64,000 bases of DNA from Thermoplasmata archaeon (GTDB taxonomy: Archaea; Thermoplasmatota; Thermoplasmata; Methanomassiliicoccales; Methanomethylophilaceae). Position 1 is the first letter of the stretch. Each line of letters opens with the position of its first letter. This document shows positions 12,101 to 52,350 of this stretch, one piece after another. The DNA is taken from the NCBI GenBank assembly GCA_015063245.1, contig SUSV01000005.1, positions 1-64,000 on the forward strand. Reading direction: 5' to 3'. A program made the translations under genes and the position numbers. Under the pieces are notes generated by a model. That model ran no database searches, was not told the origin of the DNA, and was given only the letters and a program-made list of their open reading frames with translations.

Positions 12101-13147
12101 TTGGTTACAGAAAGAGAAAGATACAACAACGCAATAAAGATGGAGGAGGTCGACAGGCCCGTGGCGACATCGCTCACGCTGATCACTCAGGAGATGTTTG
12201 CAGACACGAACATCACGCCTGTCGGATTGTTCGACCATCCCGAGGATCTAGCTAAGCTGGCGAAATACGGGCATGATGCATACGGGTTCGACTCATGCGA
12301 GATATTCAACATCTGGTCCCACGTCGAGTTCCTCGGCGCGGAGGTTGAATACAATGCCGAGCAGCCCCACATAAAGGACAACATCTACACGCTGACGGAT
12401 GATTTCGTCGCTCCTGATATGAGCAAGTACATGGATTTCCATAAGACGAAGACCTCGATCGCAGGGGTCAAGGAGCTCAGGAAGCTCGCAGGAGAGGACG
12501 GGGCCGTCAACTGCATCAACAGCTGGGGGCCGCTGACATGCGCAGGCCACCTGATAGGTGCGGAGGAGGCGATGATGGCGACCTATATGGACGGCGATGC
12601 GCTGAAGAAGCTGCTGAGATTCATCTCGGACTTCAACGTCGAGGCATACAGGCTCGAATTGGAGGGAGGACAGGCCGAGTGCCTGGACACGCTGTCCATG
12701 GCAGAGCCCACCGCTACAGGTGACATGATCGCACCCGAGACGTTCGAGGAGTTCGTACTGCCCTATGTCAGCCAGGAGCAGAAGGTCATGCACGACTGCG
12801 GGGTATCCACCATGCTCCACATCTGCGGTAACACCACAGCGAACCTGCCCCTGATGATCGCATGCGGCCCCGATGCAATCTCCGTGGAGCAGACCGTGGA
12901 CCCATACGAGATCGTCAAGATCGCAGACAACAAGGTCTGCATGTTCGGTAACATCGGGCCTATCGAGCCCCTATGGAAGGGAACGCCCGAGCAGGTGGCT
13001 GAGGCGGTCAACAGGTCGATCGATGCAGGATTCAGGATGATCGCACCCGGATGCTCCTTCGTACCCATGACTCCCGGAGCGAATCTCAAGGCGATGACCC
13101 AGACGGTGAAGGATTCCAAGAAGGGCTTCGCCAAGGGGAAGAACTGA
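12101..13147 (+). CDS. MtaA/MtbA-type methylcobamide:CoM methyltransferase
   Basis: The 348-residue protein belongs to the uroporphyrinogen-decarboxylase-like methyltransferases that move the methyl group from a methyl-corrinoid protein to coenzyme M. The zinc ligands are all visible: H240 and C242 in LHICGN and C318 in APGCSF. The N-terminus (ERERYNNAIKMEEVDRP) is typical. The start is TTG at 12101, with GAGGGAG about 5 nt upstream. It heads a two-gene unit with a paralogue (13157-14197). Whether it serves methanol (MtaA), methylamines (MtbA) or another corrinoid protein cannot be told from sequence alone. Confidence 0.88.
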   Translation: MVTERERYNNAIKMEEVDRPVATSLTLITQEMFADTNITPVGLFDHPEDLAKLAKYGHDAYGFDSCEIFNIWSHVEFLGAEVEYNAEQPHIKDNIYTLTDDFVAPDMSKYMDFHKTKTSIAGVKELRKLAGEDGAVNCINSWGPLTCAGHLIGAEEAMMATYMDGDALKKLLRFISDFNVEAYRLELEGGQAECLDTLSMAEPTATGDMIAPETFEEFVLPYVSQEQKVMHDCGVSTMLHICGNTTANLPLMIACGPDAISVEQTVDPYEIVKIADNKVCMFGNIGPIEPLWKGTPEQVAEAVNRSIDAGFRMIAPGCSFVPMTPGANLKAMTQTVKDSKKGFAKGKN

Positions 13148-13156
13148 GGCGACAGC

Positions 13157-14197
13157 ATGGCAGAGATGTCTAAGAAGGAGAGGTTCGAGGCTGTCGTCAA
13201 CGGCGAGCTGCCTGACAGAGTGCCCGTCCACGACGTGGCATGCATCGCCATGTCCAAGGCGACGGGGAACATATGGAAGGATCTCCGCTTCAACGTGGAG
13301 GCAAGCACGAAGGCCACCCTGGAGTACAACAAGCTGTCCGATTCCGATTTCTGCTTCGGGATGCTGGAGACGTCATCGATGTTCTCGGACCTCGGTGTGG
13401 ATGTCAGCCAGCCCGAGGACAACTACGGCAACGTGGGGAGCTTCTACTTCTCATCCCCGGAGGATATCGAGACGAAGGAGCTCTACGATCCGTCGGACCG
13501 CTCCCAGTCGCCGCTTGTGCACAAGGGTATCATCGACAAGATCCAGGATTACAGGAAGAACAAGACGTCCGACCAGCTCACATGCGGATGGTCATGGGGC
13601 GCGTTCACCACGGCCGGTTTCCTCAGGGGGCCCGAGAATCTCCTGATGGATGTCCTGGAGGATCCCGATTCAGCGAAGAAGGCGGTATGCAAGGCCGCCA
13701 AACTGGTCGACGGACTCATTAGGGAGGATTCCGTGGGAGTGGATGTGATCTGGATAGCGGATCCCACATCCACCGGAGGTATGATCGACGAGGCCATGTT
13801 CAGGGAGTTCGTCCTTCCGGAGACCAAGAAGCTGGTCGAGGGATGGAAGAGGGACTTCGGAGTGCCGGTCATGTACCATGTGTGCGGCGATACGATGCCG
13901 ATCATAGATGCCGTACCGGAGACAGGTATCGACATCTTCAGCATCGACCATGCCATGAACATGGCAGCCGCGAGGGAGAGGGTGAAGGACAAGATATGCC
14001 TCATGGGTAACGTCGACCCGATCACAGCTCTCCTCAACGGAACGCCCGAGGATGTGACAAGGGAATCCAAGAGGATCATCGAAGAGGGCGGAGCCGACGG
14101 AAGGTTCATCCTTGCAGGAGGATGCGAGGTCGCCAGGGACACTCCGATAGAGAACATACAGGCGATGGTATCCGCAGCGAAGAACTACAGATACTGA
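13157..14197 (+). CDS. MtaA/MtbA-like (UroD family) methyltransferase paralogue
   Basis: The 346-residue protein is a second, divergent UroD-fold methyltransferase. The zinc ligands are present: H241 and C243 in YHVCGD and C323 in AGGCEV. It starts 9 bp after the first methyltransferase gene. It shares only family motifs with that gene, so it is an old paralogue and probably works with a different corrinoid protein or methyl acceptor. No corrinoid-protein gene lies next to it; mtaC is 25 kb away. A strong terminator follows. Confidence 0.8.
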   Translation: MAEMSKKERFEAVVNGELPDRVPVHDVACIAMSKATGNIWKDLRFNVEASTKATLEYNKLSDSDFCFGMLETSSMFSDLGVDVSQPEDNYGNVGSFYFSSPEDIETKELYDPSDRSQSPLVHKGIIDKIQDYRKNKTSDQLTCGWSWGAFTTAGFLRGPENLLMDVLEDPDSAKKAVCKAAKLVDGLIREDSVGVDVIWIADPTSTGGMIDEAMFREFVLPETKKLVEGWKRDFGVPVMYHVCGDTMPIIDAVPETGIDIFSIDHAMNMAAARERVKDKICLMGNVDPITALLNGTPEDVTRESKRIIEEGGADGRFILAGGCEVARDTPIENIQAMVSAAKNYRY

Positions 14198-14206
14198 AAC
14201 CGTTTT

Positions 14207-14232
14207 CGGGACTTCGGTCCCGATTTTTCTTT
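14207..14232 (+). terminator. intrinsic-type terminator
   Basis: CGGGAC-TTCG-GTCCCG forms a 6-bp tetraloop hairpin at 14207-14222, followed directly by a T-rich run to 14232, just after the second methyltransferase gene. Confidence 0.75.
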
Positions 14233-14312
14233 TAATAAAATTGTCTTTATTTGATATGTAGTAAGCATTTTTGTCCATTATTGTTTTATATTGAACAACG
14301 ATACGTCATTGC

Positions 14313-14807
14313 ATGGATAAACTGACTGCAGCATTGAAGAGGTACCCTTCGCAGCGCAAGGTCGCGCAGAAGCTCCTCGAATACGGGATAAGGGTCTCCG
14401 ACGGGATCGCATACTGCGGAGACATCGAACAGACCGATTCAGGCATAGCACGCGTCTGCGATGTGGACAGGAGGGTCGTGCGCACAACCCTCGAGCACAT
14501 CACTGCGGATCCCCAGCTCTACCGCATATTCTCCAAGCTCAGGCCGATGCTCTCGATGATCGACATGGCAGAGGAGATCGGATGCTCAGCAATCGTTATC
14601 ATACCCGTGGATGCAAGGGTGCCGGGAATCATCGCCGACGTCACCACCGTCCTCTACAACAACGGCATCTCCCTGAAGCAGGCGATGGTCAGCGATAACG
14701 GGGAATCAACACCCACCCTCCAGATCGTCGTGGAAGGCAGGATCCCGGACAGCGTCATCATGCTCCTGAAATCATGCCGCGGTGTCGCTAGCGTCATGAT
14801 CAAGTGA
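14313..14807 (+). CDS. HTH-ACT regulator of amino-acid metabolism (COG2150 type)
   Basis: The 164-residue protein has an N-terminal helix-turn-helix-like part (about 1-60, with VAQKLLEYGIRVSDG and RRVVRTTLEHI) and a C-terminal ACT domain (about 92-164, with SAIVIIPVDARVPGIIADVT). This matches COG2150, predicted ligand-responsive regulators found mainly in archaea. A TATA box (ttttatatt, centred about 14288) lies 25 nt before ATG, implying a leaderless transcript. Ligand and targets are unknown. It may be independent of the methyltransferase genes, since a terminator separates them. Confidence 0.78.
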   Translation: MDKLTAALKRYPSQRKVAQKLLEYGIRVSDGIAYCGDIEQTDSGIARVCDVDRRVVRTTLEHITADPQLYRIFSKLRPMLSMIDMAEEIGCSAIVIIPVDARVPGIIADVTTVLYNNGISLKQAMVSDNGESTPTLQIVVEGRIPDSVIMLLKSCRGVASVMIK

Positions 14808-14868
14808 CGGGTGTAACCGAAGCAAGATTTATGTCCTCTATGTGTTTCCGAGGGTCAGGCGAATAATC

Positions 14869-15006
14869 ATGCCGATGTCCAAGAAACAATTGGAGAAGAA
14901 GAATCAGGCCAAGAAGGCTGAGCTCGCCGAGCTCCAGAAGAAGGCCGATGCCGGTGACAGCGAAGCGAAGAAGAAAGCCGCAAAGCTCAAGAAGAAGATG
15001 AAATGA
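14869..15006 (+). CDS. small Lys-rich protein (45 aa), function unknown
   Basis: ATG 14869 opens a 45-residue frame ending with TGA at 15004-15006. The product is about 40 percent lysine with Ala, Glu and Gln, and reads as one amphipathic charged helix (MSKKQLEKKNQAKK... KLKKKMK). A TATA-like GATTTATG lies about 38 nt upstream and a hairpin terminator starts 3 nt after the stop, so it looks like a compact single-gene transcript. It could be a nucleic-acid- or ribosome-associated peptide; I do not recognise a family. Confidence 0.6.
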   Translation: MPMSKKQLEKKNQAKKAELAELQKKADAGDSEAKKKAAKLKKKMK

Positions 15007-15008
15007 GA

Positions 15009-15034
15009 GGTCAGGGGGCTCAGCCCCTGTGACC
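15009..15034. terminator. bidirectional hairpin terminator
   Basis: GGTCA-GGGG and CCCC-TG-TGACC pair around a short loop between two converging genes (stops at 15006 and 15048). A-rich and T-rich flanks on either side would let it end transcription from both directions. Confidence 0.55.
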
Positions 15035-15047
15035 AAACCTTTTAGTT

Positions 15048-15917
15048 TTACTTTCTGACAGGAACGAGGAATTCGGCTATTCCGTATCCCGTGCGCCCGT
15101 TCATCACAGTTTCCGATATCGTCTCCACCAGGAGCATGTCCTTGCTGCCCTGCATCGGGAGCGTCGCATACCTGAGGATCTTTGCATCGACCGAGTACTC
15201 CTTCCCGCTCTTGCCCTTCATGGACATCCTGTAGGATGACGGCACGCTGCCGTCGTAGGAGACGTCGACATCGATCCTGACGATGGGGTCGTTGGAGTCC
15301 TTGTTCCCGTAATAGCCAGCATCCACATCTCCGATGGGGGTGCACAGCTTGGTCGCATTGAATCCTGTGCCATCGTCGTAGACGGAGTTCAGCCACATCC
15401 ACATCTTGGATGCTCCCCAGTCGCGGACCCCTTCGCTCTTGTCCCTTGCTCCGGTGCCGTCGATCTCGTACGTCCTGTCTCCTGCCTTCAGGGTACCTTT
15501 GGCGGTTCCGAACTGTTCGAAGTGCTCCGAGGCGGTCTGAGCGGACATGGCCGCGCCCTTGGCATCCACGCAGTCATGATAGTCCATGAGAGGATTGATC
15601 GGTCTCCAGACCATGTCCATCGAGGACATCATCGGGACAGGCTCCTTGGAGGCCATATCGAAGAGGGGCCCGTTGAAGGTCAAGTGCCAGCAGTCGCCTT
15701 CCTGCTTGAATGTGAGTCCAGAGCAAGACATCTTCTCATCGTCGCAGGGCACTGCGTTCCTGAGCCCGCAGACCCTGTCCTTCTCGATCAGGAAGAAGAA
15801 GACGGACTTCTCGTCCTTGTTGGGTTTGTTGCCTATGCGCATGAACGCGGTAACCCCGTTACCCTGATCATGGAAATTGAAGTAGTAGCTCTCGTTCCAT
15901 TCCAATTCGGTGCTCAT
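15048..15917 (-). CDS. lipocalin-like / hydroxyneurosporene-synthase-like protein, partner of the phosphotransferase
   Basis: The 289-residue protein is rich in beta strands and Trp/Tyr, with no signal peptide. It resembles the CrtC/DUF7064-type (lipocalin-like double-barrel) families, for example in the SASKMWMW-like and YDDGTGFNA segments, but I hold this loosely. ATG 15917 overlaps the stop of the upstream phosphotransferase-like gene (ATGA), so the two are translationally coupled and probably act on the same small molecule. Function unknown. Confidence 0.6.
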   Translation of the reverse strand: MSTELEWNESYYFNFHDQGNGVTAFMRIGNKPNKDEKSVFFFLIEKDRVCGLRNAVPCDDEKMSCSGLTFKQEGDCWHLTFNGPLFDMASKEPVPMMSSMDMVWRPINPLMDYHDCVDAKGAAMSAQTASEHFEQFGTAKGTLKAGDRTYEIDGTGARDKSEGVRDWGASKMWMWLNSVYDDGTGFNATKLCTPIGDVDAGYYGNKDSNDPIVRIDVDVSYDGSVPSSYRMSMKGKSGKEYSVDAKILRYATLPMQGSKDMLLVETISETVMNGRTGYGIAEFLVPVRK

Positions 15918-18529
15918 TTGGATTCCTCCAGGATGATGACCTCTCCCTTGCTTCCGTCGACGATCACTAGATCCCCGGTATGAAGGGCGGTCGTTGCTGA
16001 TTTGACTGCGGTCACCGCAGGTATCCTGTACTCGCGCGATATGACCGCTCCGTGACAGAGGATACCGCCTGTCTCGGTTATAAGCCCACCGAGTTTGGAG
16101 AACACGACGGTCCATCCGGGGTCGGTGTTGCTCGTTACGAGGATCTCCCCCTTCTCCACCTGGCCCAGGTCGCGGACGTCCATGATGACCCTGACCCTTC
16201 CCTGATAGGTTCCGGGACTGGATGCCGCTCCGATGAGGGTGTCCCCATGGGATATCGGCTCATCATCGAAGTCCACCCCGTTCAGGAGGAACTTGGGCGG
16301 GAGCCTGTCGCGGTATTTCATGAACTCCGCCTTCCTCGGAGCGATGGTATCTCTGATGCCCGAGGCGTCATCCCCTCTGAGGATTCCGATGGCTTCCGTA
16401 TCCTCCAGGAAGAATATGTCCTCCCTGTCGTCGATGCATCCCCTCTCGCAGAGCCTCCTTCCCAGTTCGAGGAAGATCAGCCTGTTCCTGTACATCATGT
16501 GATCGAGGTAGAATCTCTGGTTCTCCCTGAAGATGAGGTATGTCCTCGCATACTTCAGGACCTTGAAGAGGATCTTTCTCTTAAAGAAGCCGAGCTCCTT
16601 CCTTGCCATCTCCTCGGTCTCCAGCCTGCGCTGTACACCGTTCTGGAACTCAGCTCTGAGATCGGCGCCTCCGTTGCACATCTGCAGCGCGATGCCCATC
16701 ACGTATTCGGGATCCTCGGCCCACCTTAGGGCGTTGAGCTCCCTGGTCCCGGACCTGTGTCCGAATTCCTTTATGAATGAATTGTACGCGTCTTTGAATT
16801 CGCATTTTGAATTCTGGAGCCATTCCACGAACTCCTTCGCGGGCATGGACTCCGCCTTCTCCTTGACCTCCGGCTCCGCCCTGAGCGCTATCCCGAGGTC
16901 CGAGAATCCCTTGTTGGTCTCGACGGTCTTGTTGTCCTCCAGGCCGGACATCAGTCCGGCATAGACTGTGCCGTCATCCTTGAACCATTTGATGGACCAG
17001 TTCTTGACAAGGAGGTTGGTCATGATGGAATGGGACACCATGCCGTAGCGGATGAGCTGGTAGTGCTTCGTGGATCCGACGCGTATCCTCTCATACCAAT
17101 CGGCCAGATCCGTGTCGGACAGTGCCGTCAGGTCTATGGAATCGAACTCTCCGCATAGCTTCAGGAACCCGTCGGCCCATTCCCTGTAGACCCTGTCGGT
17201 CTTCCAGATCATACCGTCCCTGTCGCGGAAGAACAGGACGATCTGCGATTTCACCGCTCCGAAGTAATCGTTGGGAAGCTTGGAGATCCTCTCCTGTTCG
17301 GAACGGGGGAAGTACTCCAGCAGCTCCTTAGAACGTATGAATTTCGGATAATGGGCGAAGATCCTCTCCAGGACCGTCGCGGAGAAGTACACCCTTGATT
17401 TGTGCAGTTTAGTGAGAGGGCCGGACTCCAGGTCCTTGTAGCCCATCATGTGGGCTCCCTCGTGGTTGACATAGTCTGTGAGCATCTTGCCCATGACCGT
17501 GTAGAACATCGGTGTGGTTGCATCGGCCCAGTACTCGTCCCCGTATCCTCTGGACCAGAGGATGTCATCCTTCTCGGAGTTATCGGGCAGTGTGGTGATC
17601 GCCCTCGACTGTAGGATGTACACCTTGCCTTTCTCAGCAGCCCATTCGATGTCCTGGGGGCATCCGAAGTGGTCCCTGAGCCTCATCCCCTGTTCGGCGA
17701 TGAGCTTCAGGATATCATCATCGGCGCAGCGTGCGTTGATCTTGTCGGCGGGGATGTCGACCATCTTGTTCTCCCCGTCCACAAGATAGAAACCGTGCTC
17801 CTTGCTCTTCACATCGGCGGAGAGTACCTTTCCATCGTTTGAGACGATGTACCTGTCCGGTGTGACCAGTCCGGAGACGATCGATTCTCCGAGTCCCCAT
17901 GACGCCTCTATCACGATGTGCTCCTCCCCGGTCACCGGGTCGGATGTGAACATGACTCCGCTGATGTCAGAGGACACCATCCTCTGGACGACCACCGCCA
18001 TCCCCTGGGAGAGGTGGTCCTTGGATGCGTCATGCCTGTACTTCATCGCCCTCGCGTTCCAATACGACGCCCAGCATGTGAGGACCATCCTGATGATGTC
18101 ATGCTTCCTCACATTGAGATAGGTGTCCTGCTGCCCTGCGAAGCTCGCATCCGCCAGATCTTCCGCCACAGCGGATGAGCGCACCGCGAAGTACTCCCCT
18201 TCCATCCCGGATAGGTCTCTCTTCAGCATATTGATCTCATCTTCGGGAAGATCGGCGTTCAGGAAGAGTCCGCGGATGGTCTCGGAGGCATCCTCGAGTG
18301 AATCCTCATCGTCGAAATCCGTGGATTCCAGAATCTCCGATATCTTTGTTCTCAGCCCGGTGATGTCAAGGAACATCTCGTATGCATCCGTGGTCACCGA
18401 GAATGCCGGGGGCACGCTGAAACCGTCGGATATCATCTTCGCAATGTTCACTCCCTTTCCGCCGACCAGAGCAATGTCCAGGTCCGACGAGTCAAGGGGA
18501 ACTATGGGGCGGGGGCTGTCTGAACTCAT
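15914..18529 (-). CDS. PEP-synthase/rifampin-phosphotransferase-like enzyme
   Basis: The 871-residue protein has an ATP-grasp domain at the N-terminus (GGKGVNIAKM at about 23-32; EYFAVRSSAVAEDL; GVMFTSDPVTGE), a long middle region, and a swivelling phosphohistidine domain at the C-terminus with H826 in GGILCHGAV. It lacks the PEP/pyruvate-binding TIM barrel of true PEP synthase. The domain order and length match rifampin phosphotransferases (about 870 residues), which use ATP to phosphorylate a small molecule via the histidine. The middle domain presumably binds the substrate. The natural substrate here is unknown. It overlaps the downstream lipocalin-like gene by 4 nt. Confidence 0.78.
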   Translation of the reverse strand: MSSDSPRPIVPLDSSDLDIALVGGKGVNIAKMISDGFSVPPAFSVTTDAYEMFLDITGLRTKISEILESTDFDDEDSLEDASETIRGLFLNADLPEDEINMLKRDLSGMEGEYFAVRSSAVAEDLADASFAGQQDTYLNVRKHDIIRMVLTCWASYWNARAMKYRHDASKDHLSQGMAVVVQRMVSSDISGVMFTSDPVTGEEHIVIEASWGLGESIVSGLVTPDRYIVSNDGKVLSADVKSKEHGFYLVDGENKMVDIPADKINARCADDDILKLIAEQGMRLRDHFGCPQDIEWAAEKGKVYILQSRAITTLPDNSEKDDILWSRGYGDEYWADATTPMFYTVMGKMLTDYVNHEGAHMMGYKDLESGPLTKLHKSRVYFSATVLERIFAHYPKFIRSKELLEYFPRSEQERISKLPNDYFGAVKSQIVLFFRDRDGMIWKTDRVYREWADGFLKLCGEFDSIDLTALSDTDLADWYERIRVGSTKHYQLIRYGMVSHSIMTNLLVKNWSIKWFKDDGTVYAGLMSGLEDNKTVETNKGFSDLGIALRAEPEVKEKAESMPAKEFVEWLQNSKCEFKDAYNSFIKEFGHRSGTRELNALRWAEDPEYVMGIALQMCNGGADLRAEFQNGVQRRLETEEMARKELGFFKRKILFKVLKYARTYLIFRENQRFYLDHMMYRNRLIFLELGRRLCERGCIDDREDIFFLEDTEAIGILRGDDASGIRDTIAPRKAEFMKYRDRLPPKFLLNGVDFDDEPISHGDTLIGAASSPGTYQGRVRVIMDVRDLGQVEKGEILVTSNTDPGWTVVFSKLGGLITETGGILCHGAVISREYRIPAVTAVKSATTALHTGDLVIVDGSKGEVIILEESK

Positions 18530-18594
18530 CTAAACGGCTTATACCAAATTCCGTATAAAGTCTATCACTCGCGGCGCTTAGGCGAAGACAGCGT

Positions 18595-18969
18595 TCAGAC
18601 GATCAGTGCCAGCGTTATGCCGAAGGCCCTGGTTATGTAGCCTGTCAGCGACCCGAGGCAGATGCCCACGAACAGACCTGCGGACAGTCCGAGCCTGTTG
18701 GATGGGAGGAACAGGGGCACGCAGAAGAAGAGGAATGTGAACCTCCAGTACCATGTGATGGCGAACGTGATCACGAACGCCGCGATCAGCCCTGCGAAGA
18801 AGGGTTTGCCGAACACACGCTCCTTCAGGGGTCTGTCATCCGCGCCGGCGAGGATCCTGATCTCCTCCGGGACCTCGGACTGAGGCATGGGGCGAACCAT
18901 GTTACCGCATTCGGGACACTGGTATTCGTTGTCCTTGAGGTAACGTCCGCATCTGGGGCAGAAATCCAT
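18595..18969 (-). CDS. zinc-ribbon membrane protein, function unknown
   Basis: The protein (124 residues) has an N-terminal zinc ribbon (CPRCG at residues 4-8, CPECG about 14 residues later) followed by a polar linker and two or three membrane helices from about residue 60. It is one of many small zinc-ribbon membrane proteins of archaea without a known role. ATG 18969 (MDFCPRCG) is preferred over ATG 18984 because a TATA-like ATTTTATC is centred about 28 nt upstream of it. Confidence 0.65.
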   Translation of the reverse strand: MDFCPRCGRYLKDNEYQCPECGNMVRPMPQSEVPEEIRILAGADDRPLKERVFGKPFFAGLIAAFVITFAITWYWRFTFLFFCVPLFLPSNRLGLSAGLFVGICLGSLTGYITRAFGITLALIV

Positions 18970-19014
18970 ACAGGTCACTGTCATTTTTACTAGATAAAAT
19001 CCCCTGATTCAGTT

Positions 19015-19593
19015 TCAGAGAATCCTGCCTTCCCTGGAAACCACCGTCTCCTTCACCGGGATGTCCTTGCCAGCGGCCTCCAGAGACGACCTCACCAGCC
19101 TGGTGAGAGCGCTGCAACAGGGGACCTCCATCCTGACGATATCGATGCTGTCGATGGGTGCGTATGAGAAGATCTCCCTCAGCTTGTCGAATCTTGTGTG
19201 ATCATCGAGCTTGGGGCAACCTATGACGACCGGATCGCCCTTGGCGAAGGTATCCTTGAACGAATCGACCTTGAAGGCGGTGCAGTCCGCAGCGATGACC
19301 AGTCTCCCCTTCAGGCAGTCCGACCTGGGGGATACGAGTGCCAGCTGGATGGGCCATTGGACTCCCGGAGAGACCATGTTGGGCGAGAAAACCATCGGCT
19401 GCACATCAGTCTCGACGAATGATATCGCATCCTGAGGACAGGCCGGAAGGCAATCGCCCATGCCGTCGCAGTAGTTCGGTCTGACGAGCTTGGCTTTTCC
19501 GTCGACAAGCGCGAGAGCGCCCTCATGGCATGCCTTTACGCAGAGCCCGCATCCGTTGCACCTTGATTCGTCGATTGTGATGATCTTTGCCAT
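19015..19593 (-). CDS. ferredoxin-type 4Fe-4S protein
   Basis: The 192-residue protein carries two 4Fe-4S motifs near the N-terminus: CNGCGLCVKAC (residues 11-21) and CDGMGDCLPAC (42-52). A C-terminal domain of about 120 residues with further cysteines (CPKLDD, PCCSAL) follows. This layout is common in methanogens and anaerobes for small cytoplasmic electron-transfer or cluster-carrier proteins. Partner unknown; no linked redox enzyme gene. ATG 19593 begins immediately before the ferredoxin fold. Confidence 0.75.
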   Translation of the reverse strand: MAKIITIDESRCNGCGLCVKACHEGALALVDGKAKLVRPNYCDGMGDCLPACPQDAISFVETDVQPMVFSPNMVSPGVQWPIQLALVSPRSDCLKGRLVIAADCTAFKVDSFKDTFAKGDPVVIGCPKLDDHTRFDKLREIFSYAPIDSIDIVRMEVPCCSALTRLVRSSLEAAGKDIPVKETVVSREGRIL

Positions 19594-19635
19594 AGAAATG
19601 TGAGCGGTCTCAGATTATAAGGGTGTTTCCAGACT

Positions 19636-20529
19636 TCATTCAAGTATTTGATCAGGATTTTCTTCTTCAATCACTTTTTCATGTGTTTCTTTAGTCTGGT
19701 ACGTACCAGTATAATGAGATTTTTTCTCACATGTAGATGTCAAAGGTTCTAGGCAATCTGAATCGTTGTCATCTCTCATAATCAGATGAGGGCGACCGCA
19801 ATCATCTATGATTTTACATTGGACTCCATACACGGTATTGATATTTTCTTCAGTAATGACCTCTATAGGTTTGCCTACTGAGAAAATAGTTCCATTATGC
19901 ATCAAAATGATATTATCCGAATACTTAGAAGCAATATTGATGTCATGACTAATCATTATTACAAGCATATTCTCCTTGCGTGAAAGGTCACGTAGCATCC
20001 TAGAGATACCAAGTTGGTGTTTAATATCGAGATTAGAAGTCGGTTCATCAAGTAACAGTATCTGTGGTTTTTGAACGAGGCCTCTGGCAAGCATAACACG
20101 TTGATGTTGTCCTGCAGACAACTCATTAAACGGCCTCATAGCTAAATCCGAAATACCAAGACTGGCGAGAGTATCGTAGACAATCTCTAGATCCTCGTCT
20201 GTGGTTTTCCAACCAGCATGAGGGTGTCTTCCCAATAGGACCGTATCTACGACTGTAAGTGGGAATGTATCTGATGATGAGTATGGGACATAGCCGACCT
20301 TTTTTGCCATCTCTTTGAGTGTATAGTCATTAACATCCTTTGCATCCAGAAGGACGGTTCCTCCACGCGGGGATAGGATTTTGTTGATACAATGGATCAT
20401 TGTAGATTTTCCAACCCCATTCGGGCCGAGTATGCTAACCAATTGAGGGCCCTTGATGTTAAGGTTGATAGATTCAAGCACATCGAGGTCGCTATATCCG
20501 AAAGACATGTTGTTAGCATCTATTTCCAC
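19636..20529 (-). CDS. ABC transporter ATPase of the FecE/BtuD type (importer cluster 1)
   Basis: The 297-residue ATPase powers uptake of an iron chelate or cobamide. Walker A GPNGVGKST is near residues 34-42, the ABC signature is LSAGQHQRVMLARG, and Walker B is ILLLDEPTS. About 45 extra C-terminal residues (CEKKSHYTGTYQ...) are polar and unlike most BtuD proteins. The start is GTG at 20529, with AGGTGAGG upstream. It is divergent from its binding protein and permeases (20724-24256). The gene is clearly more AT-rich than most neighbours, as is the rest of the cluster. Confidence 0.88.
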   Translation of the reverse strand: MEIDANNMSFGYSDLDVLESINLNIKGPQLVSILGPNGVGKSTMIHCINKILSPRGGTVLLDAKDVNDYTLKEMAKKVGYVPYSSSDTFPLTVVDTVLLGRHPHAGWKTTDEDLEIVYDTLASLGISDLAMRPFNELSAGQHQRVMLARGLVQKPQILLLDEPTSNLDIKHQLGISRMLRDLSRKENMLVIMISHDINIASKYSDNIILMHNGTIFSVGKPIEVITEENINTVYGVQCKIIDDCGRPHLIMRDDNDSDCLEPLTSTCEKKSHYTGTYQTKETHEKVIEEENPDQILE

Positions 20530-20702
20530 GGCTCTTCCTCACCTTTGGTAATGTCGGGAATAATTAGACGTATTTGAATAATTGGATTATACGTCCTACT
20601 AGACTCTAAAATGAGACTAGTAATTTGCTACTTGCAATTAGCCAGATGTATCAAAATAGCGTTTAATCAAAGCGATGATTATAATTATGATGATTACATT
20701 GG
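20530..20702. promoter_or_regulatory. divergent promoter region of importer cluster 1
   Basis: This AT-rich stretch separates the ATPase gene (minus) from the binding-protein gene (plus). It holds an imperfect inverted repeat at about 20598-20621 (ACTAGACTC / GAGACTAGT, one mismatch) and TATA-like runs, including ATTATAATTATG near 20679-20690. A metal-responsive regulator could bind here, but I see no diagnostic Fur or DtxR box. Confidence 0.45.
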
Positions 20703-20723
20703 ATGATACACCCAAGTGGTATT

Positions 20724-22067
20724 ATGAACACGAAATCAATGGTCATTTTGGCCATAGTTGCGGTCGCAGCCGTTGCTGTTGTCGGAGGCATTGTGCTATT
20801 CGGACAAAGCGATGACGACGACAAGAAGACATATGCTATCGATGGTAGTCTCAACGTCTACGGAAACGCAGATAGAGATTACAAGATCGATAATGAAGAT
20901 CTGCAAATTGTAAAGGACATTGTTGCTGGAGAGAAGAGCTTCGCAGACTACCCCTTTGCCGATGCAGATTATAATGGAACGGTTAATGATGCAGATGTTG
21001 AGCTTGTTCAGAAGATTCTCGACAAAGAACCTTGTACAATCACTCACGTCAACATTAAGAAAACAGCAGGAGAATACATTTCTCAGACCAGTTGGCCCGT
21101 CAAATCTGCAATTGCAACAGGTTCTTCCAACAACTTGATGCTTTTCACTCTGGCAGGAATTAATGACAAGATACATGGAATCTGTTATTCGTCAACACCC
21201 GACTACACGCTGTTCCCTACATATGAGAAGGTAGAGAGGCTCGGAACGAAGTCTACTGCGATATCATTGGATGCTGCTAATGATACAATCAAACAGTACA
21301 AAGTAACAGCATTAATTTCAGACTATACCGACTCTACAATCAGCAATGAGAGCGAATTCGAAGATAACGGAATTGATGTCATTAGAATCTCAGCAGCAGT
21401 TGTCGATCCAGATAAGTATGCTAGTCAGCTACTGTTGATTGGTTTCCTCTTCCAGAGTGAGACCAAAGCCATGGAATTCTCTGAATGGAATACTAAAGTT
21501 CTCAAGGAAATTGCGAGCAAAGTCAGTACAATCGAGAAGAAAAAGACTGTTATTACCTGTAACTCTGCTGCATCATCGAAGGGTGTATGGGTATCTGCTG
21601 GTGCTTCCGACTACAGGGATGTTGTAGAGGCCGCTGGAGGAGTTTACGCAATTACGGACGATTATGATGTTCAGTCTATTAGCGGTTACACCTCTGGTGC
21701 ATACTTCGCTGAGGGAGACACATGGATCTATAACCTCAATCCCGATGCAATCGTCTCAATTCGTGTATCTGATTGGTACAGCGGATCACTCGACATTGTG
21801 AAGAAGTATGAGGAGAGTGTGGGTCTTTTCAAACAGACTAAAGCCTATGAGGATGGATACGTTTCGGTCATTACCGGTGATGCACCAATCTCAATACGTG
21901 TTGCTTACGCAGCGGCTATGATGTATCCTGATGTTTTCTCAATCGAGTGGGCGAACGAACTCAATGAGGAAGCATTCGAAAAGTTCTACCCTGTAGACAT
22001 CGACTTTAAAGGCAAGACTTTCGCAATCACTTCAGAAGATTACGAAGCAGCTAAAGAAAAGGCTTGA
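20724..22067 (+). CDS. dockerin-fused substrate-binding protein (importer cluster 1)
   Basis: The 447-residue extracytoplasmic protein has a hydrophobic N-terminal anchor (about 5-28), a DDDDKK linker, then two Ca-binding EF-hand-like repeats typical of type I dockerins (NADRDYKIDNEDL at about 48-60, DADYNGTVNDADV at about 80-92). A FecB/BtuF-type periplasmic-binding domain follows (about 110-447). It captures an iron chelate or cobamide for the two permeases that follow. The dockerin-like module could bind a cohesin-bearing surface protein or simply stabilise the linker. ATG 20724 is chosen just before the hydrophobic segment; ATG 20703 is possible. Confidence 0.85.
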   Translation: MNTKSMVILAIVAVAAVAVVGGIVLFGQSDDDDKKTYAIDGSLNVYGNADRDYKIDNEDLQIVKDIVAGEKSFADYPFADADYNGTVNDADVELVQKILDKEPCTITHVNIKKTAGEYISQTSWPVKSAIATGSSNNLMLFTLAGINDKIHGICYSSTPDYTLFPTYEKVERLGTKSTAISLDAANDTIKQYKVTALISDYTDSTISNESEFEDNGIDVIRISAAVVDPDKYASQLLLIGFLFQSETKAMEFSEWNTKVLKEIASKVSTIEKKKTVITCNSAASSKGVWVSAGASDYRDVVEAAGGVYAITDDYDVQSISGYTSGAYFAEGDTWIYNLNPDAIVSIRVSDWYSGSLDIVKKYEESVGLFKQTKAYEDGYVSVITGDAPISIRVAYAAAMMYPDVFSIEWANELNEEAFEKFYPVDIDFKGKTFAITSEDYEAAKEKA

Positions 22068-22077
22068 AAACAAATTA

Positions 22078-22093
22078 CCGGGGGTAACCCCGG
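22078..22093 (+). terminator. intercistronic hairpin after binding-protein gene
   Basis: CCGGGG-GTAA-CCCCGG forms a 6-bp stem directly after the binding-protein stop and before the permease. It may partly stop transcription or protect the upstream mRNA, giving more binding protein than permease. Confidence 0.45.
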
Positions 22094-22112
22094 ACTTAAA
22101 AGGGTGGAGTGA

Positions 22113-23186
22113 TTGGGCAAAGAATCTCTGAAGGATGAGTACAAGAGGTATACAGGCAGGAAGATTATCTTTATCCTGGTCTGCACAGTCTCAGTATTTA
22201 TCCTCATGGGGTTGTCCATTTATTTCGGAGGATCCGATCTATCACTCCACCATATCTATGAATTGATTTGGAACCACATTTGTGGAATGAAATATGAGAT
22301 TGGCACCGATGATTTCCATGATGATTATGTTGTTTGGAATATTCGTATGCCAAGAACCGTCTTCGCGGTAATAGCAGGCGCAGGATTGGCTGCAGGCGGA
22401 GCAGTCATGCAATCGGTTATGAAGAATCCCCTTGCCGATCCATACACTACTGGGATCTCTTCAGGCGCATGTTTTGGAATGGCATTAGCAATTGTCCTAG
22501 GGATAACAGTTACTGGCGCCGGTATAAACGACATGGGCGGGATCATCAACGCCTTTATTTTTGCATTAATCCCAGTCGTCATCGTTATCGTAATCACACA
22601 GCGTTCTGAAGTATCGCCTGCGACTTTAATTCTGGTCGGAGTGGCGATCACATACATCTTTAACGCATTCACAACCATTCTTATGATGATATCAGACTCG
22701 GAAACTTTGGCAACAGTTTATCGCTGGCAGATTGGTTCATTTTCTGAAATCTTGTGGAGAGATATTCCCGTGATGGCCGCCATCAATCTGACGGGGATAT
22801 TCATCTTACTCTTGTTATCCAGAAAACTTAACATCTTGTCATTGGGAGACAACAGTGCAAAGAGTCTAGGATTAGATGTAGATATGATGCGTATTGTATG
22901 TCTGCTGATAATCTCGTTTATGATAGCATCTGTAGTATGCTACTGTGGTATCATCGGATTTGTCGGGCTCATTATCCCCCATATTGTTCGTAAACTGATA
23001 CAATCAGACAATTTATTTGTTATTCCGGCGTCAGCAGCATTCGGTGCGGTATTTCTGCTTGCGGCAGATACTATAGCCAGATATCTGTCCCCGCTTGATG
23101 CAATTCCGGTCGGAGTTGTCATGGCATTCATAGGATCGCCATTGTTCCTTTTTATCATTATTAAAAGTAAGAAGGAGGTGTGGTGA
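22113..23186 (+). CDS. FecCD/BtuC-type permease 1 (importer cluster 1)
   Basis: The 357-residue membrane protein has about ten helices and the family hallmarks RMPRTVFAVIAGAGLAAGGA, NPLADPYTTGISSGA and the FCGIIGFVGLIIPH-like YCGIIGFVGLIIPH segment. It forms half of the import channel. TTG at 22113 is the likely start, with GGTGGAG about 7 nt upstream. Its TGA overlaps the ATG of the second permease (TGATG), implying coupled translation of a heterodimer. Confidence 0.88.
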   Translation: MGKESLKDEYKRYTGRKIIFILVCTVSVFILMGLSIYFGGSDLSLHHIYELIWNHICGMKYEIGTDDFHDDYVVWNIRMPRTVFAVIAGAGLAAGGAVMQSVMKNPLADPYTTGISSGACFGMALAIVLGITVTGAGINDMGGIINAFIFALIPVVIVIVITQRSEVSPATLILVGVAITYIFNAFTTILMMISDSETLATVYRWQIGSFSEILWRDIPVMAAINLTGIFILLLLSRKLNILSLGDNSAKSLGLDVDMMRIVCLLIISFMIASVVCYCGIIGFVGLIIPHIVRKLIQSDNLFVIPASAAFGAVFLLAADTIARYLSPLDAIPVGVVMAFIGSPLFLFIIIKSKKEVW

Positions 23187-24256
23187 TGAACGAAGAGGTT
23201 GCAGAATATCGTAATAAGAACAGAAAGAAGCTTCTGTGGATGTCTGTTCTTTTTGTCGCGATGATTATCGTTGCCACATATTCCATCTGTGTGACACAGT
23301 ACTCAATATCATTTTCTAGAGCTATGGAGATAATAATCAATCATATTAACGGTGAGGAACCCCAGGACTATTGGGATCGGTTGGAAAAGTTCATCGTGAT
23401 TGACAGTCTGTGCCCACGTGCGGTTGGAGGTGTACTTGTGGGACTGATTCTCGGAATCTGTGGTACATTGATGCAGTCCACTATTCGCAACCCACTAGCC
23501 GACCCTTATACAACAGGAATATCGTCAGGTGCTTTGTTGGGGGTCACTCTTTTCACTGTTTTTGGTTTTTCTGTAATTCCTTCGGCAGATGAGAATGTCG
23601 GACTCATAGTATCTGCTTTTTCATTCGCGCTTATACCTTGTATACTGGTCATTTCTATTTCTTCATTCAAGCGGGTTACTTCGACCACCATAGTTCTGAT
23701 CGGGATTGCAGTGATGTATGTGTTCAACGCTTTTTCAACGCTTATAAGATACACCGCATCCGATGAAGATGTTGCATCAATTTATGCGTGGTCTGTAGGT
23801 TTACTGGGAAGAATGAATTGGGAGTCATCAGTTTACCTTTTCATCGTGTTTATCCTATTATTTGTAATTTCAATATATGCTGCAAATACACTGAATGTGT
23901 TGGCCATGGAGGATAAAATGTGTTCAGCTTTGGGTGTGAATCCACAGAGGACGAGATTATTCATAATGGTCATAGTAGCCGTCGCAACCGCTACGGCAGT
24001 CTGTTTCGTTGGAACCATAGGGTTCATTGGTCTAATTGCGCCTCATATAGGGCGTATATTTGTGGGTTCAGACAACAAATACCTCATACCTGCCTCTGCC
24101 ATTATCGGAGCTTTTATTCTGATCTCTGCAGATTCTGTCGCAAGGATAATCACAACCACTGGATTGCCTGTCGGTGTTGTGACATCTGCTATAGGGGGGC
24201 CAATATTCTTGATTATCTTATTGCGCCAGCGTAAAAGTGCGTGGGGCGACCATTGA
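23186..24256 (+). CDS. FecCD/BtuC-type permease 2 (importer cluster 1)
   Basis: The 356-residue membrane protein is paralogous to the preceding permease, with NPLADPYTTGISSGA and VGTIGFIGLIAPH motifs. ATG 23186 follows a strong ribosome site (GGAGGTG, about 23174-23180) and overlaps the previous stop. Two different permeases in one cluster indicate a heterodimeric channel, in contrast to the single-permease cluster at 55-58 kb. Confidence 0.88.
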   Translation: MNEEVAEYRNKNRKKLLWMSVLFVAMIIVATYSICVTQYSISFSRAMEIIINHINGEEPQDYWDRLEKFIVIDSLCPRAVGGVLVGLILGICGTLMQSTIRNPLADPYTTGISSGALLGVTLFTVFGFSVIPSADENVGLIVSAFSFALIPCILVISISSFKRVTSTTIVLIGIAVMYVFNAFSTLIRYTASDEDVASIYAWSVGLLGRMNWESSVYLFIVFILLFVISIYAANTLNVLAMEDKMCSALGVNPQRTRLFIMVIVAVATATAVCFVGTIGFIGLIAPHIGRIFVGSDNKYLIPASAIIGAFILISADSVARIITTTGLPVGVVTSAIGGPIFLIILLRQRKSAWGDH

Positions 24257-24292
24257 TATGATCGCCTCTTAAAAGCGTCAAGCCATAGATGC

Positions 24293-24730
24293 TCAATCCG
24301 AATCAAGCGTCTTATCCTCGATGGCCTTCACCATCATCAACACATGGTCGGCTACGATCTTGCCCTTCTTCGTTATGACGATGACGTTGGTGTTGGTCCT
24401 GGCCGTCTTGTAAATTTTGATCAGCCCGAGCTCTTCGAGATCATCGATCTTCTTGACCATGTTGTTGGCCCTTGAGATGTTGTTGTACACGTCGGACTTG
24501 ACCACCGGCGACATCTGACTGATATAGCACAGGATGCTGAGAACGTATTTCCCTTCAAGGACCCTGAGGGTGGTCTTCTTGACCTTGGAATCCGCCTTCC
24601 TGTCCTCTAGGATTTTCTGGATGTCGGGGGGAAGCTCCTCGAAGGGGAGCGGCTCTTTCGTGACATTGGTCCTATTATCCAGCTTTCCACCTATAGGAAT
24701 GCTTGTCACGGTAGCAGAATGTTCATCCAT
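24293..24730 (-). CDS. winged-helix regulator, archaeal type
   Basis: The 145-residue protein has a charged N-terminal tail (1-50) and a winged-helix domain (about 55-140). Recognisable are a helix-turn-helix (SDVYNNISRANNMVKKIDDLEELGLI) and a beta wing (TNTNVIVITKKGKIVADHV). It converges with importer cluster 1, so it might regulate it, but there is no direct evidence. Target unknown. Confidence 0.65.
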   Translation of the reverse strand: MDEHSATVTSIPIGGKLDNRTNVTKEPLPFEELPPDIQKILEDRKADSKVKKTTLRVLEGKYVLSILCYISQMSPVVKSDVYNNISRANNMVKKIDDLEELGLIKIYKTARTNTNVIVITKKGKIVADHVLMMVKAIEDKTLDSD

Positions 24731-24915
24731 AATGCGAAGTATGTCTCAAAGAATTAAACCATTTGTGCTACACCATATATGTTTTCAGAACCGTTATTTC
24801 AAAGATTGTTCGTTCTATAATCAGTGTTTGCATCAAAATGAGCATAAAAAATTGATAGAATATTGTTTACAAAAAGTGAGCAAGGCCTATGGCCCGCTCT
24901 TATGTTTGACGGTCT

Positions 24916-25305
24916 TCAGATCTCAAGACAGTATCTGGCGATGGTCTTTCCGATCTCGAGGACCTTGCATTTTCCCCTGAACTCGAAGTGACCCTTGTGG
25001 CCGTTGGAGAAGTAGAGGTCGAGCTCAGCATCGGGGATGAGCTCCATGAATCCGACGGTCTGGACGGTGAAGTACTGCACCATCTTGTAGGGCATTACCT
25101 GGATGAACTGCTTCTTTCCGGTGATTCCCTTCACATCGACGGAGATGATCCTCTTGTTGGTGAAGATGAGCTGGTCCCTGACGGTCTTGAATGCGTCGAC
25201 GACCTCCTCGCCCTCTACGAGCATAGCGTAAACGTTCTTGTTGACATCTTTAGTATCGATCTGAGTAAGGTCGATTGCGATATCGGTATCAAAATCGATT
25301 CCCAT
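24916..25305 (-). CDS. PH-like domain protein (bacterial-type PH)
   Basis: The 129-residue protein resembles the bacterial/archaeal pleckstrin-homology-like family (YvbH/DUF1696 type): VEGEEVVDAFKTVRDQLIFTNKR is its characteristic strand pattern. It has no membrane helix or enzymatic motif. It is probably a cytoplasmic or membrane-associated scaffold. ATG 25305 is supported by an upstream AT-rich stretch shared with the divergent zinc-ribbon gene. Confidence 0.75.
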   Translation of the reverse strand: MGIDFDTDIAIDLTQIDTKDVNKNVYAMLVEGEEVVDAFKTVRDQLIFTNKRIISVDVKGITGKKQFIQVMPYKMVQYFTVQTVGFMELIPDAELDLYFSNGHKGHFEFRGKCKVLEIGKTIARYCLEI

Positions 25306-25364
25306 GGTAATCGGAATTGAAATCGTCGGGACACTATTTGTACTTAGTCAAGTATAGGATAGAC

Positions 25365-25931
25365 ATGGTAGATTCCATCTGTCCGGGGTGCGGTGCGCCG
25401 CTGACCCTGATGAACGGTGCGGGATATGTCACATGCAAATTCTGCGGCATGTCCGTCAGGGCGGATGAGAATCCATCCGTCGATCCCGGCGCGGCGAAGG
25501 ATTTCTTCTGCTCGGGAGACAGCAGCGAGGCCTTCAGGCTTCTGTCCGAACAGGCGGAGAAGAATCCCAATGATCCTGCCATCTGGCTCATGAAGGGCAA
25601 CTGCGCTCCGAGGGCATCGGAGAGGGATGCCGCATATGCGAATGCGGATAGGATCCTCAGGTCACACCCATCCGACTCGGTCCTGCTGGAGGTGAGATGG
25701 ACGTCCATGGTGTTCAACTGGAAGTGCGAGCTCACCATCGACGACCTGACCTTCAGGCTCGGAGGGATGGAGAGGTACCGCGCTTTGGTGCCGAAGGGCG
25801 ACCATACTTTCGTCTTCAGATGCCCGAGCGCCAATCTCGAGACGAAGAAGGAGATAACCGTCAAAGGTGATAGGACTGTATCTCTCGAGGCCAAGAAAGG
25901 GCTCCTATCAAAGAGCCTGTCCATCGATTGA
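25365..25931 (+). CDS. zinc-ribbon protein of unknown function
   Basis: The 188-residue protein starts with a zinc ribbon (CPGCGAPL then CKFCG). A helical, TPR-like stretch follows (SEAFRLLSEQAEKNPNDPAIWLMKGN) and then a beta-rich C-terminal domain (about 115-188). Such proteins often pair with PH-like or SPFH proteins; here the PH-like gene is divergent and shares the promoter region. ATG 25365 lies about 27 nt after a TATA-like ACTATTTGTA. Confidence 0.6.
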   Translation: MVDSICPGCGAPLTLMNGAGYVTCKFCGMSVRADENPSVDPGAAKDFFCSGDSSEAFRLLSEQAEKNPNDPAIWLMKGNCAPRASERDAAYANADRILRSHPSDSVLLEVRWTSMVFNWKCELTIDDLTFRLGGMERYRALVPKGDHTFVFRCPSANLETKKEITVKGDRTVSLEAKKGLLSKSLSID

Positions 25932-25960
25932 CATAATGATTCTCAGAAGAACGGGATGAG

Positions 25961-26033
25961 TGGGCCTGCCCGGATTTGAACCGGAGTCAATGGCTCCCGA
26001 AGCCACAAGGATACCAAGCTACCCCACAGGCCC
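25961..26033 (-). tRNA. tRNA-Pro (CGG)
   Basis: The minus strand gives acceptor GGGCCTG/CAGGCCC with discriminator A, anticodon stem GTGGC/GCCAT with loop TTCGGGA (anticodon CGG), and T-arm CCGG TTCAAAT CCGG. No intron; CCA is not encoded. Confidence 0.92.
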
Positions 26034-45738: not shown

Positions 45739-46840
45739 TGTATATCTTCCCCCTTTTGTACAGTAAATAAGCGAATACCGGAACTCCGATCAATGTGGTG
45801 ATCGATCCGACCGGAAGTTCCAATCCAGGCATGATCATTCTAGCTAAAAGGTCTGCACCTATCATAATTGCTCCTCCGAAAGCGATAGATGCAGGCAGAA
45901 CTATTCTGTGATCTCCTCCGAATATCATACGGCACAGGTGAGGTATAATCAAACCTACGAATCCGATTATTCCGCAGAAAGCAACACAGAATGCTGCCAG
46001 GACCGATGACAGGATCAGGATCATAGCATTGAATCTCTTGACGTTCAGTCCCATCTGCCTTGCCTGATCGTCGCCCAGTAGTACGAGATTCAATTCCTTG
46101 GAGTATCTCATGATGAATACGGACAGTATCACAGCAGGGATGAGGACACACAGTGTCTCCCTCATAGTTATCTGTGAGAATGAACCGAACAGCCAAAGCA
46201 TGGTGTTGGAGACCGCGTGACCGGAAAACAGGATCATAACGGTCTGTATCGCACCGAATATCAATCCTATTACAACTCCCGATAGGACGTAAGCATTGGT
46301 CGACGCACCTGCCATATGGGCAAGGACCATGGTCGCTACAAAGGCCAGCAACCCTCCAACTATGGCCGACGCAGCTATCAGGAAAGGAGAATGCGCTGAA
46401 ACCAGGCCGAAGAATGTGAAGCCATAAGCGATCGATGCTATTGCGAACGTGCCCGCTCCGGACGAGACTCCCATGATATATGGGTCCACCAGGGGATTCC
46501 TGATGACAGCCTGATATCCGGCCCCTGCAATCGACAATCCAAGACCTACCGCTATGGCCGCGATCGCCCTGGGCATACGTGAGCTGTATACCCTGACCTC
46601 ATCATTGGTCATATCGGTGCCGCCCTTGCCGATGGCTGAGAACAGATTGGAGAACGCATCGATGGGGCTCATTATCCCGTCAGGGCCGATGCACAATGCT
46701 GCGACGAACATGGTCATCAGAAGGATGAAGCCGATGAGCAGCATCATCTTGGACAGATGTTTCTTCTTTGCGATGTGCGTCTCGCCTTTCCCATTGAGCA
46801 CCGCTCTGATTCCGGACATCACCCTGTTCTCCTCAGGCAT
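45731..46840 (-). CDS. FecCD/BtuC-type permease (importer cluster 2)
   Basis: The 369-residue membrane protein has the typical RMPRAIAAIAVGLGLSIAGA, NPLVDPYIMGVSSGA and FCGIIGFVGLIIPH motifs. ATG 46840 overlaps the end of the propeller-permease fusion by 8 nt (ATGCCTGA). It is close in sequence to the permease half of that fusion, so the two probably form a heterodimeric channel. Confidence 0.92.
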   Translation of the reverse strand: MPEENRVMSGIRAVLNGKGETHIAKKKHLSKMMLLIGFILLMTMFVAALCIGPDGIMSPIDAFSNLFSAIGKGGTDMTNDEVRVYSSRMPRAIAAIAVGLGLSIAGAGYQAVIRNPLVDPYIMGVSSGAGTFAIASIAYGFTFFGLVSAHSPFLIAASAIVGGLLAFVATMVLAHMAGASTNAYVLSGVVIGLIFGAIQTVMILFSGHAVSNTMLWLFGSFSQITMRETLCVLIPAVILSVFIMRYSKELNLVLLGDDQARQMGLNVKRFNAMILILSSVLAAFCVAFCGIIGFVGLIIPHLCRMIFGGDHRIVLPASIAFGGAIMIGADLLARMIMPGLELPVGSITTLIGVPVFAYLLYKRGKIYNG

Positions 46841-51255: not shown

Positions 51256-52350
51256 TCAAGGTTTCTTCTTGATCATGAAGAATGCTACTACAACAATCAC
51301 CAGGATCACTGCTGCTGCGATTCCTGCGTAGAGGATGATGTTGTTCTCTTCCTCATCGTCGTCATCGCCGCTGTCTCCTGAAGGCATTACTGCAGGAAGC
51401 TTGGTCCAGTATGCATCCATTCCGTATGCAGGTGCGTGATAGTAGAATGAATCATCCTGGGGATCTTCCATCTTGTAGTTGTCAAACACGTGGGAGATGA
51501 CAGTAGCAGTGGTGAGATCATCAGACTGCATGTCCTTCCACTTGTTCTGAGTTCCGTCCTGACAGTACGTTGCGAATCCGTAGTAGTCTGCGGTACCGTA
51601 TGTTCCGTGTGTAGAGTATGTGTAATCGTTGGCTGTGACTGAAACCAGGCCTGTGGCGTACTTGCCGTTCATCAGGCTGAATCCAGCCTTCTCGGCACCC
51701 ATCGTCCTTGCGCTCTTGAGCGATTCGCCGCTGATTCCGGGCTGAATGCTGGAGGTCCATTTGCTGAATGACTTATCTCCGTCATTCATCTGGAAGTAGA
51801 CCTTGTACTCCACCATCTTTACAGTTGGGAGGGGTGACCAGTAGGGGTCGGAACCAGGGTATTCGTTCTTGTAGTATTTGCTGGCGTCAGAGGGTTCTGA
51901 GAAAGCATATTTGTCGAAAACGATGACGAGCATGGTTTCGTCAGCAAGGCTGGAATCTTTCCATGCAGCTCCGTCGTAGTAGTATACTGCGAAGTTCTGG
52001 TAGTTGTCTCCGCCCCATTCCGAGTAAGCTGAACCTGCGTAGGTAACTCCATCAGCAGTGATTGAGCTTATCATACCATAGGATCCAGTTACGATGGTGA
52101 GGCCGGCTTTCTCGCACGCATTGGTCAATGCAGCGGTGTACAGGTCAGAGGTGGGCTCTGTTCCATACACAGACACATCTGCAAGGCGTGCGCTGTAGGA
52201 ATTGCTTCCATCCCTCAGGTCGAGGTAAAATGAATATGTTACTGATTCTTCACTTGCTGCTGAAGAATCATCAGATACAACGGCAATTGCAAAAGCGGAA
52301 GCGCAGAATACTGCGACCGCGACAATTGCATACATTTTCGTGTGGTTCAT
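51256..52350 (-). CDS. anchored surface protein with two repeated domains (importer cluster 2)
   Basis: The 364-residue protein has a signal peptide (about 1-25), two homologous domains of about 130 residues (about 35-160 and 170-305), an acidic stalk (SGDSGDDDDEEENN) and a C-terminal membrane helix (about 335-358) ending in KKKP. Both repeats share strands such as VSVYGTEPTSD/…, KAGLTIV.../KAGFSLM, Y.GFATYCQDG.. and the ending VFDKY/VFDNY. The fold recalls the transcobalamin-C-terminal-like (DUF4430) domains, by eye only. As first gene of the cluster it may bind ligand at the cell surface. ATG 52350 follows GGAGG at good spacing. Confidence 0.75.
   Translation of the reverse strand: MNHTKMYAIVAVAVFCASAFAIAVVSDDSSAASEESVTYSFYLDLRDGSNSYSARLADVSVYGTEPTSDLYTAALTNACEKAGLTIVTGSYGMISSITADGVTYAGSAYSEWGGDNYQNFAVYYYDGAAWKDSSLADETMLVIVFDKYAFSEPSDASKYYKNEYPGSDPYWSPLPTVKMVEYKVYFQMNDGDKSFSKWTSSIQPGISGESLKSARTMGAEKAGFSLMNGKYATGLVSVTANDYTYSTHGTYGTADYYGFATYCQDGTQNKWKDMQSDDLTTATVISHVFDNYKMEDPQDDSFYYHAPAYGMDAYWTKLPAVMPSGDSGDDDDEEENNIILYAGIAAAVILVIVVVAFFMIKKKP

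Follow-up and report, generated by a model that had tools for sequence, protein, structure and literature searches.

Dockerins found outside cellulosomes are often taken as linkers to unseen cohesins. In ANME archaea, importer receptors of the NikA/OppA and TroA types are reported to carry dockerins commonly; cohesin and scaffoldin-like proteins coexist in these groups, and a linking role is considered (PMC9012536). Dockerin- and cohesin-type domains were also counted in PMC5244752, where their role outside the cellulosome is called not known. Calcium sites are described from another kind of importer receptor: an EF-hand-like site is among the defining features of cluster G receptors (PMC5287374), and in AlgQ2 the EF-hand-like Ca site reportedly touches the transporter (PMC5717064). 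Among the matches listed from the open-licence literature (most subscription papers lie outside this scope), no description of the module lineage reported here was found for the order Methanomassiliicoccales.

The window is a stretch of 64,000 nucleotides (positions 1–64,000 of contig SUSV01000005.1, assembly GCA_015063245.1) from a Thermoplasmata archaeon of the family Methanomethylophilaceae. From its sequence, the product of the gene at 20724..22067 (P0001) is assigned as a membrane-anchored ABC-importer receptor of the PF01497 class adjoining two FecCD permeases (Table 1). The translation runs from a hydrophobic anchor through an acidic linker and two 12-residue Ca-loops to the PF01497 domain. 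An alternative in-frame ATG lies upstream at 20703; position 20724 was preferred because it fits the starts of aligned relatives. The PF01497 (Peripla_BP_2) match is marginal in Pfam (cut-off 27.5 bits), and no carbohydrate-receptor family was assigned. Naming a ligand from solved relatives was attempted and rejected: profile A1 meets PF01497-type entries that include an iron/siderophore receptor and IsdE, which is too weak a basis. No riboswitch or other RNA family was found at gathering score at 13000–26000, so this region gives no ligand hint. A methylcobalamin:CoM methyltransferase-like gene, below family cut-offs, lies at 13157–14197.

Table 1. Importer features around the receptor gene, in window coordinates.
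Feature	Coordinates	Strand	Basis
ABC ATPase, divergently transcribed upstream, probable partner	19636..20529	-	PF00005 106.7 bits
Receptor with dockerin module, an ABC-importer substrate-binding protein of 447 aa	20724..22067	+	ORF translation; PF01497 27.6 bits
N-terminal membrane anchor, residues ~4-25, without lipobox Cys	20733..20798	+	Sequence; helix H4-25 in low-confidence model
Dockerin-fold module (predicted), residues 43-102	20850..21029	+	Held-out profile 71.3 bits; predicted fold
Ca-loop 1, N48-D59 (N-x-D-x-D-x-K-x-D-x-x-D)	20865..20900	+	Sequence; position statistics
Ca-loop 2, D80-D91 (D-x-D-x-N-x-T-x-N-x-x-D)	20961..20996	+	Sequence; position statistics
Substrate-binding domain, residues ~112-447	21057..22064	+	PF01497 residues 195-343; profile-profile (hhalign) 99.4% with canonical same-genome receptors
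FecCD permease 1, module-partner permease group	22113..23186	+	PF01032 298 bits; tree
FecCD permease 2, module-partner permease group	23180..24256	+	PF01032 278 bits; tree

In both loops of P0001, positions 1, 3, 5, 9 and 12 are occupied by oxygen-bearing residues. Pfam Dockerin_1 (PF00404) scores 14.2 bits on P0001, below its cut-off of 22.9 bits, and 27.2 bits on the paralogue L001, above it. A module profile was built from 19 modules, all from other genomes with the source genome held out, and matched residues 42–102. In the shuffle controls its best scores were 11.0 bits (5000 whole-protein shuffles) and 14.8 bits (5000 shuffles of module composition). The dockerin reading is not due to chance, because the module scores 71.3 bits against a best of 14.8 bits among 10,000 shuffles. 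The module was modelled by itself in AlphaFold (pLDDT 79, pTM 0.72), and comparison of this model with the PDB in Foldseek gave 38 matches; ranks 1–29 are dockerin entries with probabilities of 0.82–1.00, at a best E-value of only 0.039. Among solved structures, one profile of ten full-length relatives meets dockerins as well as receptors of PF01497 type. The predicted fold of the module is dockerin type I. The full-length AlphaFold model was built from three sequences (pLDDT 35, pTM 0.29) and was used for the anchor helix alone. The first-pass annotation had placed two calcium-binding repeats of dockerin type at residues about 46–100, between anchor and binding domain, and had asked for structure prediction. 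The repeats are real and accurately placed (compare the loops in Table 1): loops, held-out profile and module model agree, and the model matches solved dockerins at a Foldseek probability of up to 1.00.

In the source genome (1.49 Mb, 94.4% complete), Dockerin_1 matches at E ≤ 1 make up seven rows and fall in six genes, namely five module receptors and one stray match. The stray match is a weak one with a single Ca-loop-like stretch in an unrelated 410-residue protein (L007 694–1923, minus strand, G000:C12), and was judged to be chance or an isolated loop. Receptor status was assigned by an iterated HMM seeded on A1, which also recognizes plain receptors in that genome. Pfam PF01497 was detected in P0001 and L003 and missed in L001, L002 and L005, which were called receptors by the HMM, their FecCD neighbours and hhalign (98.8% for the L001 group and 90% for L005). 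SAM-methyltransferase-like ORFs with an ArsR-like C-terminal part, seen by eye, adjoin two of the paralogous module receptors (L002 1–1114 and L003 15–1187).

Across the order, a dockerin match (E ≤ 0.01) was found in 86 of 147 genomes and a cohesin match (E ≤ 0.001) in 15 of 147. For 13 near-complete cohesin-negative relatives, 74 rows were reduced to 70 classified genes, with three weak rows unclassified in that count; 69 of the 70 are module receptors, and two of the weak rows were later read as module receptors as well (G035 at 855 kb and G078 at 45 kb). The remaining gene (L112 1410–1811, genome G032) is a short module ORF of 134 residues; a receptor ORF begins within a few bases of its end, and the two are possibly one frameshifted or split receptor gene. 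Seven cohesin-positive genomes hold 65 module receptors and 14 other dockerin-type genes, of which L163 later reads as a receptor by eye (L226) and L194 is a fragment. When 389 genomes of the phylum were scanned with the module profile, strong matches were confined to the order (37 genomes, all but one at E ≤ 1.2e-17); outside it, weak matches occurred in 17 genomes (best 2.5e-12).

The module is a regular part of the receptor chain. It precedes the receptor domain in 157 of the 158 ORFs that have both among the loci first fetched; the exception (L110) is a multi-unit ORF whose leading receptor unit was severed from its module by the locus end. Asp12 of loop 2 and the receptor Pro motif are 29–30 residues apart in 68 of the 130 sequences (of 146) in which the motif was found, and therefore the first receptor strand follows the last helix after only a few residues. 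In profile alignments with plain receptors of the same genome, anchor aligns with anchor and receptor with receptor, leaving the module as a clean insertion between them. Mean pairwise identity over 102 single-unit genes is 41.5% for the module against 18.7% for the receptor (ligand) domain. Two or three receptor units per chain occur in 11 of 139 module-receptor genes, and the later units, far from the anchor, also carry the module, with the exception of one of the three units of L160. Tandem module-receptor units, two or three per chain and some with further N-terminal sequence, were seen in L072 (G080), L165 (G092) and L195 (G091); these chains are possible multi-receptor arrays. On a receptor-domain tree (63 domains from eight genomes) the module label needs two changes, compared with 17 for shuffled labels. 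Module-bearing receptors form one group, and the lone apparent exception, again the first unit of L110, is void, since that locus was truncated and the unit's module lies in the adjoining DNA (L225).

The permeases follow the same division. A FecCD gene lies within 1 kb of all five module receptors of the source genome and within 3 kb of 38 of 40 module-receptor genes in eight genomes. A permease tree was calculated from 61 FecCD rows of four genomes, labelled solely by the adjoining receptor; nine of the 61 are unlabelled, three of them because the label was removed beforehand where the receptor lay more than 2.5 kb away. One group (SH-aLRT 90) takes in all 33 neighbours of module receptors and excludes all 19 neighbours of plain receptors. 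From these trees the module is assigned to one receptor lineage and a matching permease lineage, with which it is co-inherited. The first-pass annotation had described a single odd receptor; its receptor with a module stands, but what it took for one case is the rule for a whole lineage of receptors and permeases. In an alignment with the other permeases, the module group has no special insertion, whether extracellular or clade-specific. It has a few signature residues, of which a Pro (33 of 33, against none of 19 others) is the sole invariant one and, as judged by eye, looks membrane-embedded.

Other FecCD arrangements were seen in the same genome. On the minus strand of the window, a FecCD permease is fused behind a PQQ-type beta-propeller ectodomain (46833–49769; PF13360 and PF01032), and adjoining this fusion is a plain PF01497 receptor that has an additional domain at its N terminus (49762–51207). 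Beside that receptor lies a protein of 389 residues (51256–52425, minus strand) with repeated similar domains, recognized by eye, and a C-terminal membrane anchor, for which no Pfam match was found at E 0.05. A similar receptor stands beside a propeller-like ORF at about 198–201 kb of G000:C12 (L008), with a FecCD gene at 201664.

Receptor modules were compared, position by position, with 12 non-receptor dockerins from cohesin-positive genomes, a small set; L163, L194 and L112 were left out of these statistics. To be accepted by the loop finder, a loop needed at least four of five ligand positions and a hydrophobic position 8, Asp or Asn being scored at position 1 and Asp or Glu at position 12. 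Position 12 of loop 1 and positions 1 and 12 of loop 2 are Asp in all 148 receptor modules, percentages that are partly preset because the finder demands ligands. The contrast at position 1 of loop 1 is free of this: the residue is Asn in 146 of 148 receptor modules and Asp in 12 of 12 non-receptor dockerins. At helix positions 11 and 14, polar residues predominate in receptor modules, with hydrophobic ones in 15–30% and 16–19%, respectively, of the 148, against 67–75% and 67–83% of the 12. A hydrophobic residue stands at positions −3 and −2 relative to loop 1 and at −2 relative to loop 2 in 99–100% of receptor modules and in 17–67% of the others. Positions 11 and 14 are part of what we take to be the cohesin-facing surface of dockerins. 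From these differences and those before the loops, it follows that receptor modules keep the Ca-loops yet show a different face.

The first-pass annotation had suggested a tether to a cohesin-bearing surface protein and a genome search for cohesin domains. PF00963 gave no match at E ≤ 1 in the source genome, which is 94% complete, so that a cohesin may lie in the missing 6% or be of an unrecognized type. Eight cohesin domains, of which six genomes of the same genus supplied six and two genomes of the same family the other two, were made into a second profile; it was strongly positive in both control genomes, each of which had contributed a row, and gave no match at E ≤ 1 in the source genome and the 13 relatives. 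The count of cohesin-bearing scaffoldins in the source genome, at this completeness and with the two profiles, is zero. The search thus detected none and gives the tether no support, and the module is also kept in cohesin-negative relatives. Proteins that combine a cohesin with a dockerin domain in one chain were seen in a genome of the same genus (L025) and in one of the same family (L058); some relatives therefore have cohesin–dockerin systems.

We favour, with reasonable though limited confidence, the explanation that the module is a rigid collar, probably loaded with calcium, that is integral to one dedicated FecCD importer lineage and does not serve as a ligand for cohesin here. In its favour are the dockerin-like module itself, the short junction and clean insertion, the module's higher conservation and its presence in internal tandem units, the polar positions 11 and 14, the co-inheritance with receptor and permease, and the lack of a detected cohesin in the source genome and 13 relatives. 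A dockerin-fold domain would have been fixed as a structural part of this lineage in the order. As a short rigid element between membrane anchor and ligand-binding domain, a few residues from the latter, it would hold or brace that domain, packed against one of its surfaces, in an orientation that serves its own permease pair. Several observations count against the collar. The full-length model, at its low pLDDT, gives no support for packing of the module on the receptor; the invariant Asn of loop 1 could weaken calcium binding; and the permeases of the module group have no special extracellular insertion, their one invariant signature residue appearing to lie in the membrane. Module receptors are also more numerous per genome in the cohesin-positive set (65 in seven) than in the cohesin-negative set (69 in 13). 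This excess counts against full independence from cohesin and could hint at a link, with the confounder that the cohesin-positive genomes are mostly larger. It is one of the points in favour of a tether, in which the module would dock on a cohesin-bearing surface protein of its own or another cell; the dockerin fold itself is another, as are the 14 of 86 dockerin-positive genomes of the order that also have cohesin matches. Such docking is nevertheless very unlikely, given that the other 72 have no such match, that two profiles detected no cohesin in the source genome and 13 relatives, that positions 1, 11 and 14 set receptor modules apart from the remaining dockerins of cohesin-positive genomes and that the receptor already has a membrane anchor of its own.

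Contact with the permeases themselves is an unlikely alternative, although it has more in its favour. By analogy with the proposal for the EF-hand-like site of AlgQ2, the module might touch the FecCD pair and aid ligand handover; the precedent is reported in PMC5717064. The single group formed by the adjoining permeases fits this, as does the stronger conservation of the module relative to the ligand domain, as expected for a common partner. The same trees are expected from co-inheritance alone, however, the permeases have no lineage-specific insertion, and the internal modules of tandem chains cannot all be equidistant from the membrane. A calcium dependence of uptake was the second suggestion of the first-pass annotation. 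The near-invariant ligand positions of both loops would equally suit a switch in which binding or release of Ca2+ alters the shape or reach of the receptor and so gates uptake, and the Asn at position 1 of loop 1 could tune its affinity. Extracellular Ca2+ is usually sufficient to keep such loops occupied, and a structural role is therefore simpler; we regard a switch as very unlikely. Least probable of all is a vestigial dockerin, kept by descent with no present function. The cohesin searches found no partner in the cell, as this would predict, but near-invariant Ca-ligand positions, a module identity twice that of the ligand domain and the lack of any module loss within the module group of the receptor tree all speak against it.

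The collar also allows a more tentative history, which we would not yet expect to hold as a whole: the dockerin fold may have entered a distinct archaeal FecCD importer subclass, probably in a single event, and become an obligate, Ca2+-dependent component of it. Cohesin binding would have given way to a fixed interface inside the importer, and duplication may then have spread the subclass into many ligand specificities and tandem multi-receptor chains. The order offers a large testable set in which a dockerin fold is kept and inherited with a transporter, most of the genomes having no detected cohesin. If the reading is true, many archaeal 'dockerin' annotations would denote receptor parts and not signs of a surface scaffold, and the module would mark out an importer group in gut-type archaea.

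Cellulosomal dockerin type I domains (PF00404; PDB entries 1ohz, 2mte and 4fl4) have the fold and the Ca-loop pattern in common with the module. Unlike them, the module is N-terminal to a receptor domain across a short junction, differs at position 1 of loop 1 and on its helix face, and has no cohesin found with it. Receptors of the BtuF/FhuD type (class III) with FecCD permeases are alike in receptor domain and permeases, and the module between anchor and receptor domain is the extra element here. In the cluster G receptors AlgQ2, FusA and Smon0123 an EF-hand-type Ca site is also part of an importer receptor; that site lies inside a subdomain of a large carbohydrate receptor (PMC5717064, PMC5287374), whereas here a separate two-loop N-terminal dockerin fold is placed on a PF01497/FecCD system. 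The dockerin-bearing receptors of ANME archaea are likewise archaeal importer receptors, likened here by their published description (PMC9012536); against them stand a genome without detectable cohesin and a module fixed in one FecCD lineage. Dockerins on importer receptors are thus already known from ANME archaea, and the FecCD-lineage module is a variant of that arrangement.
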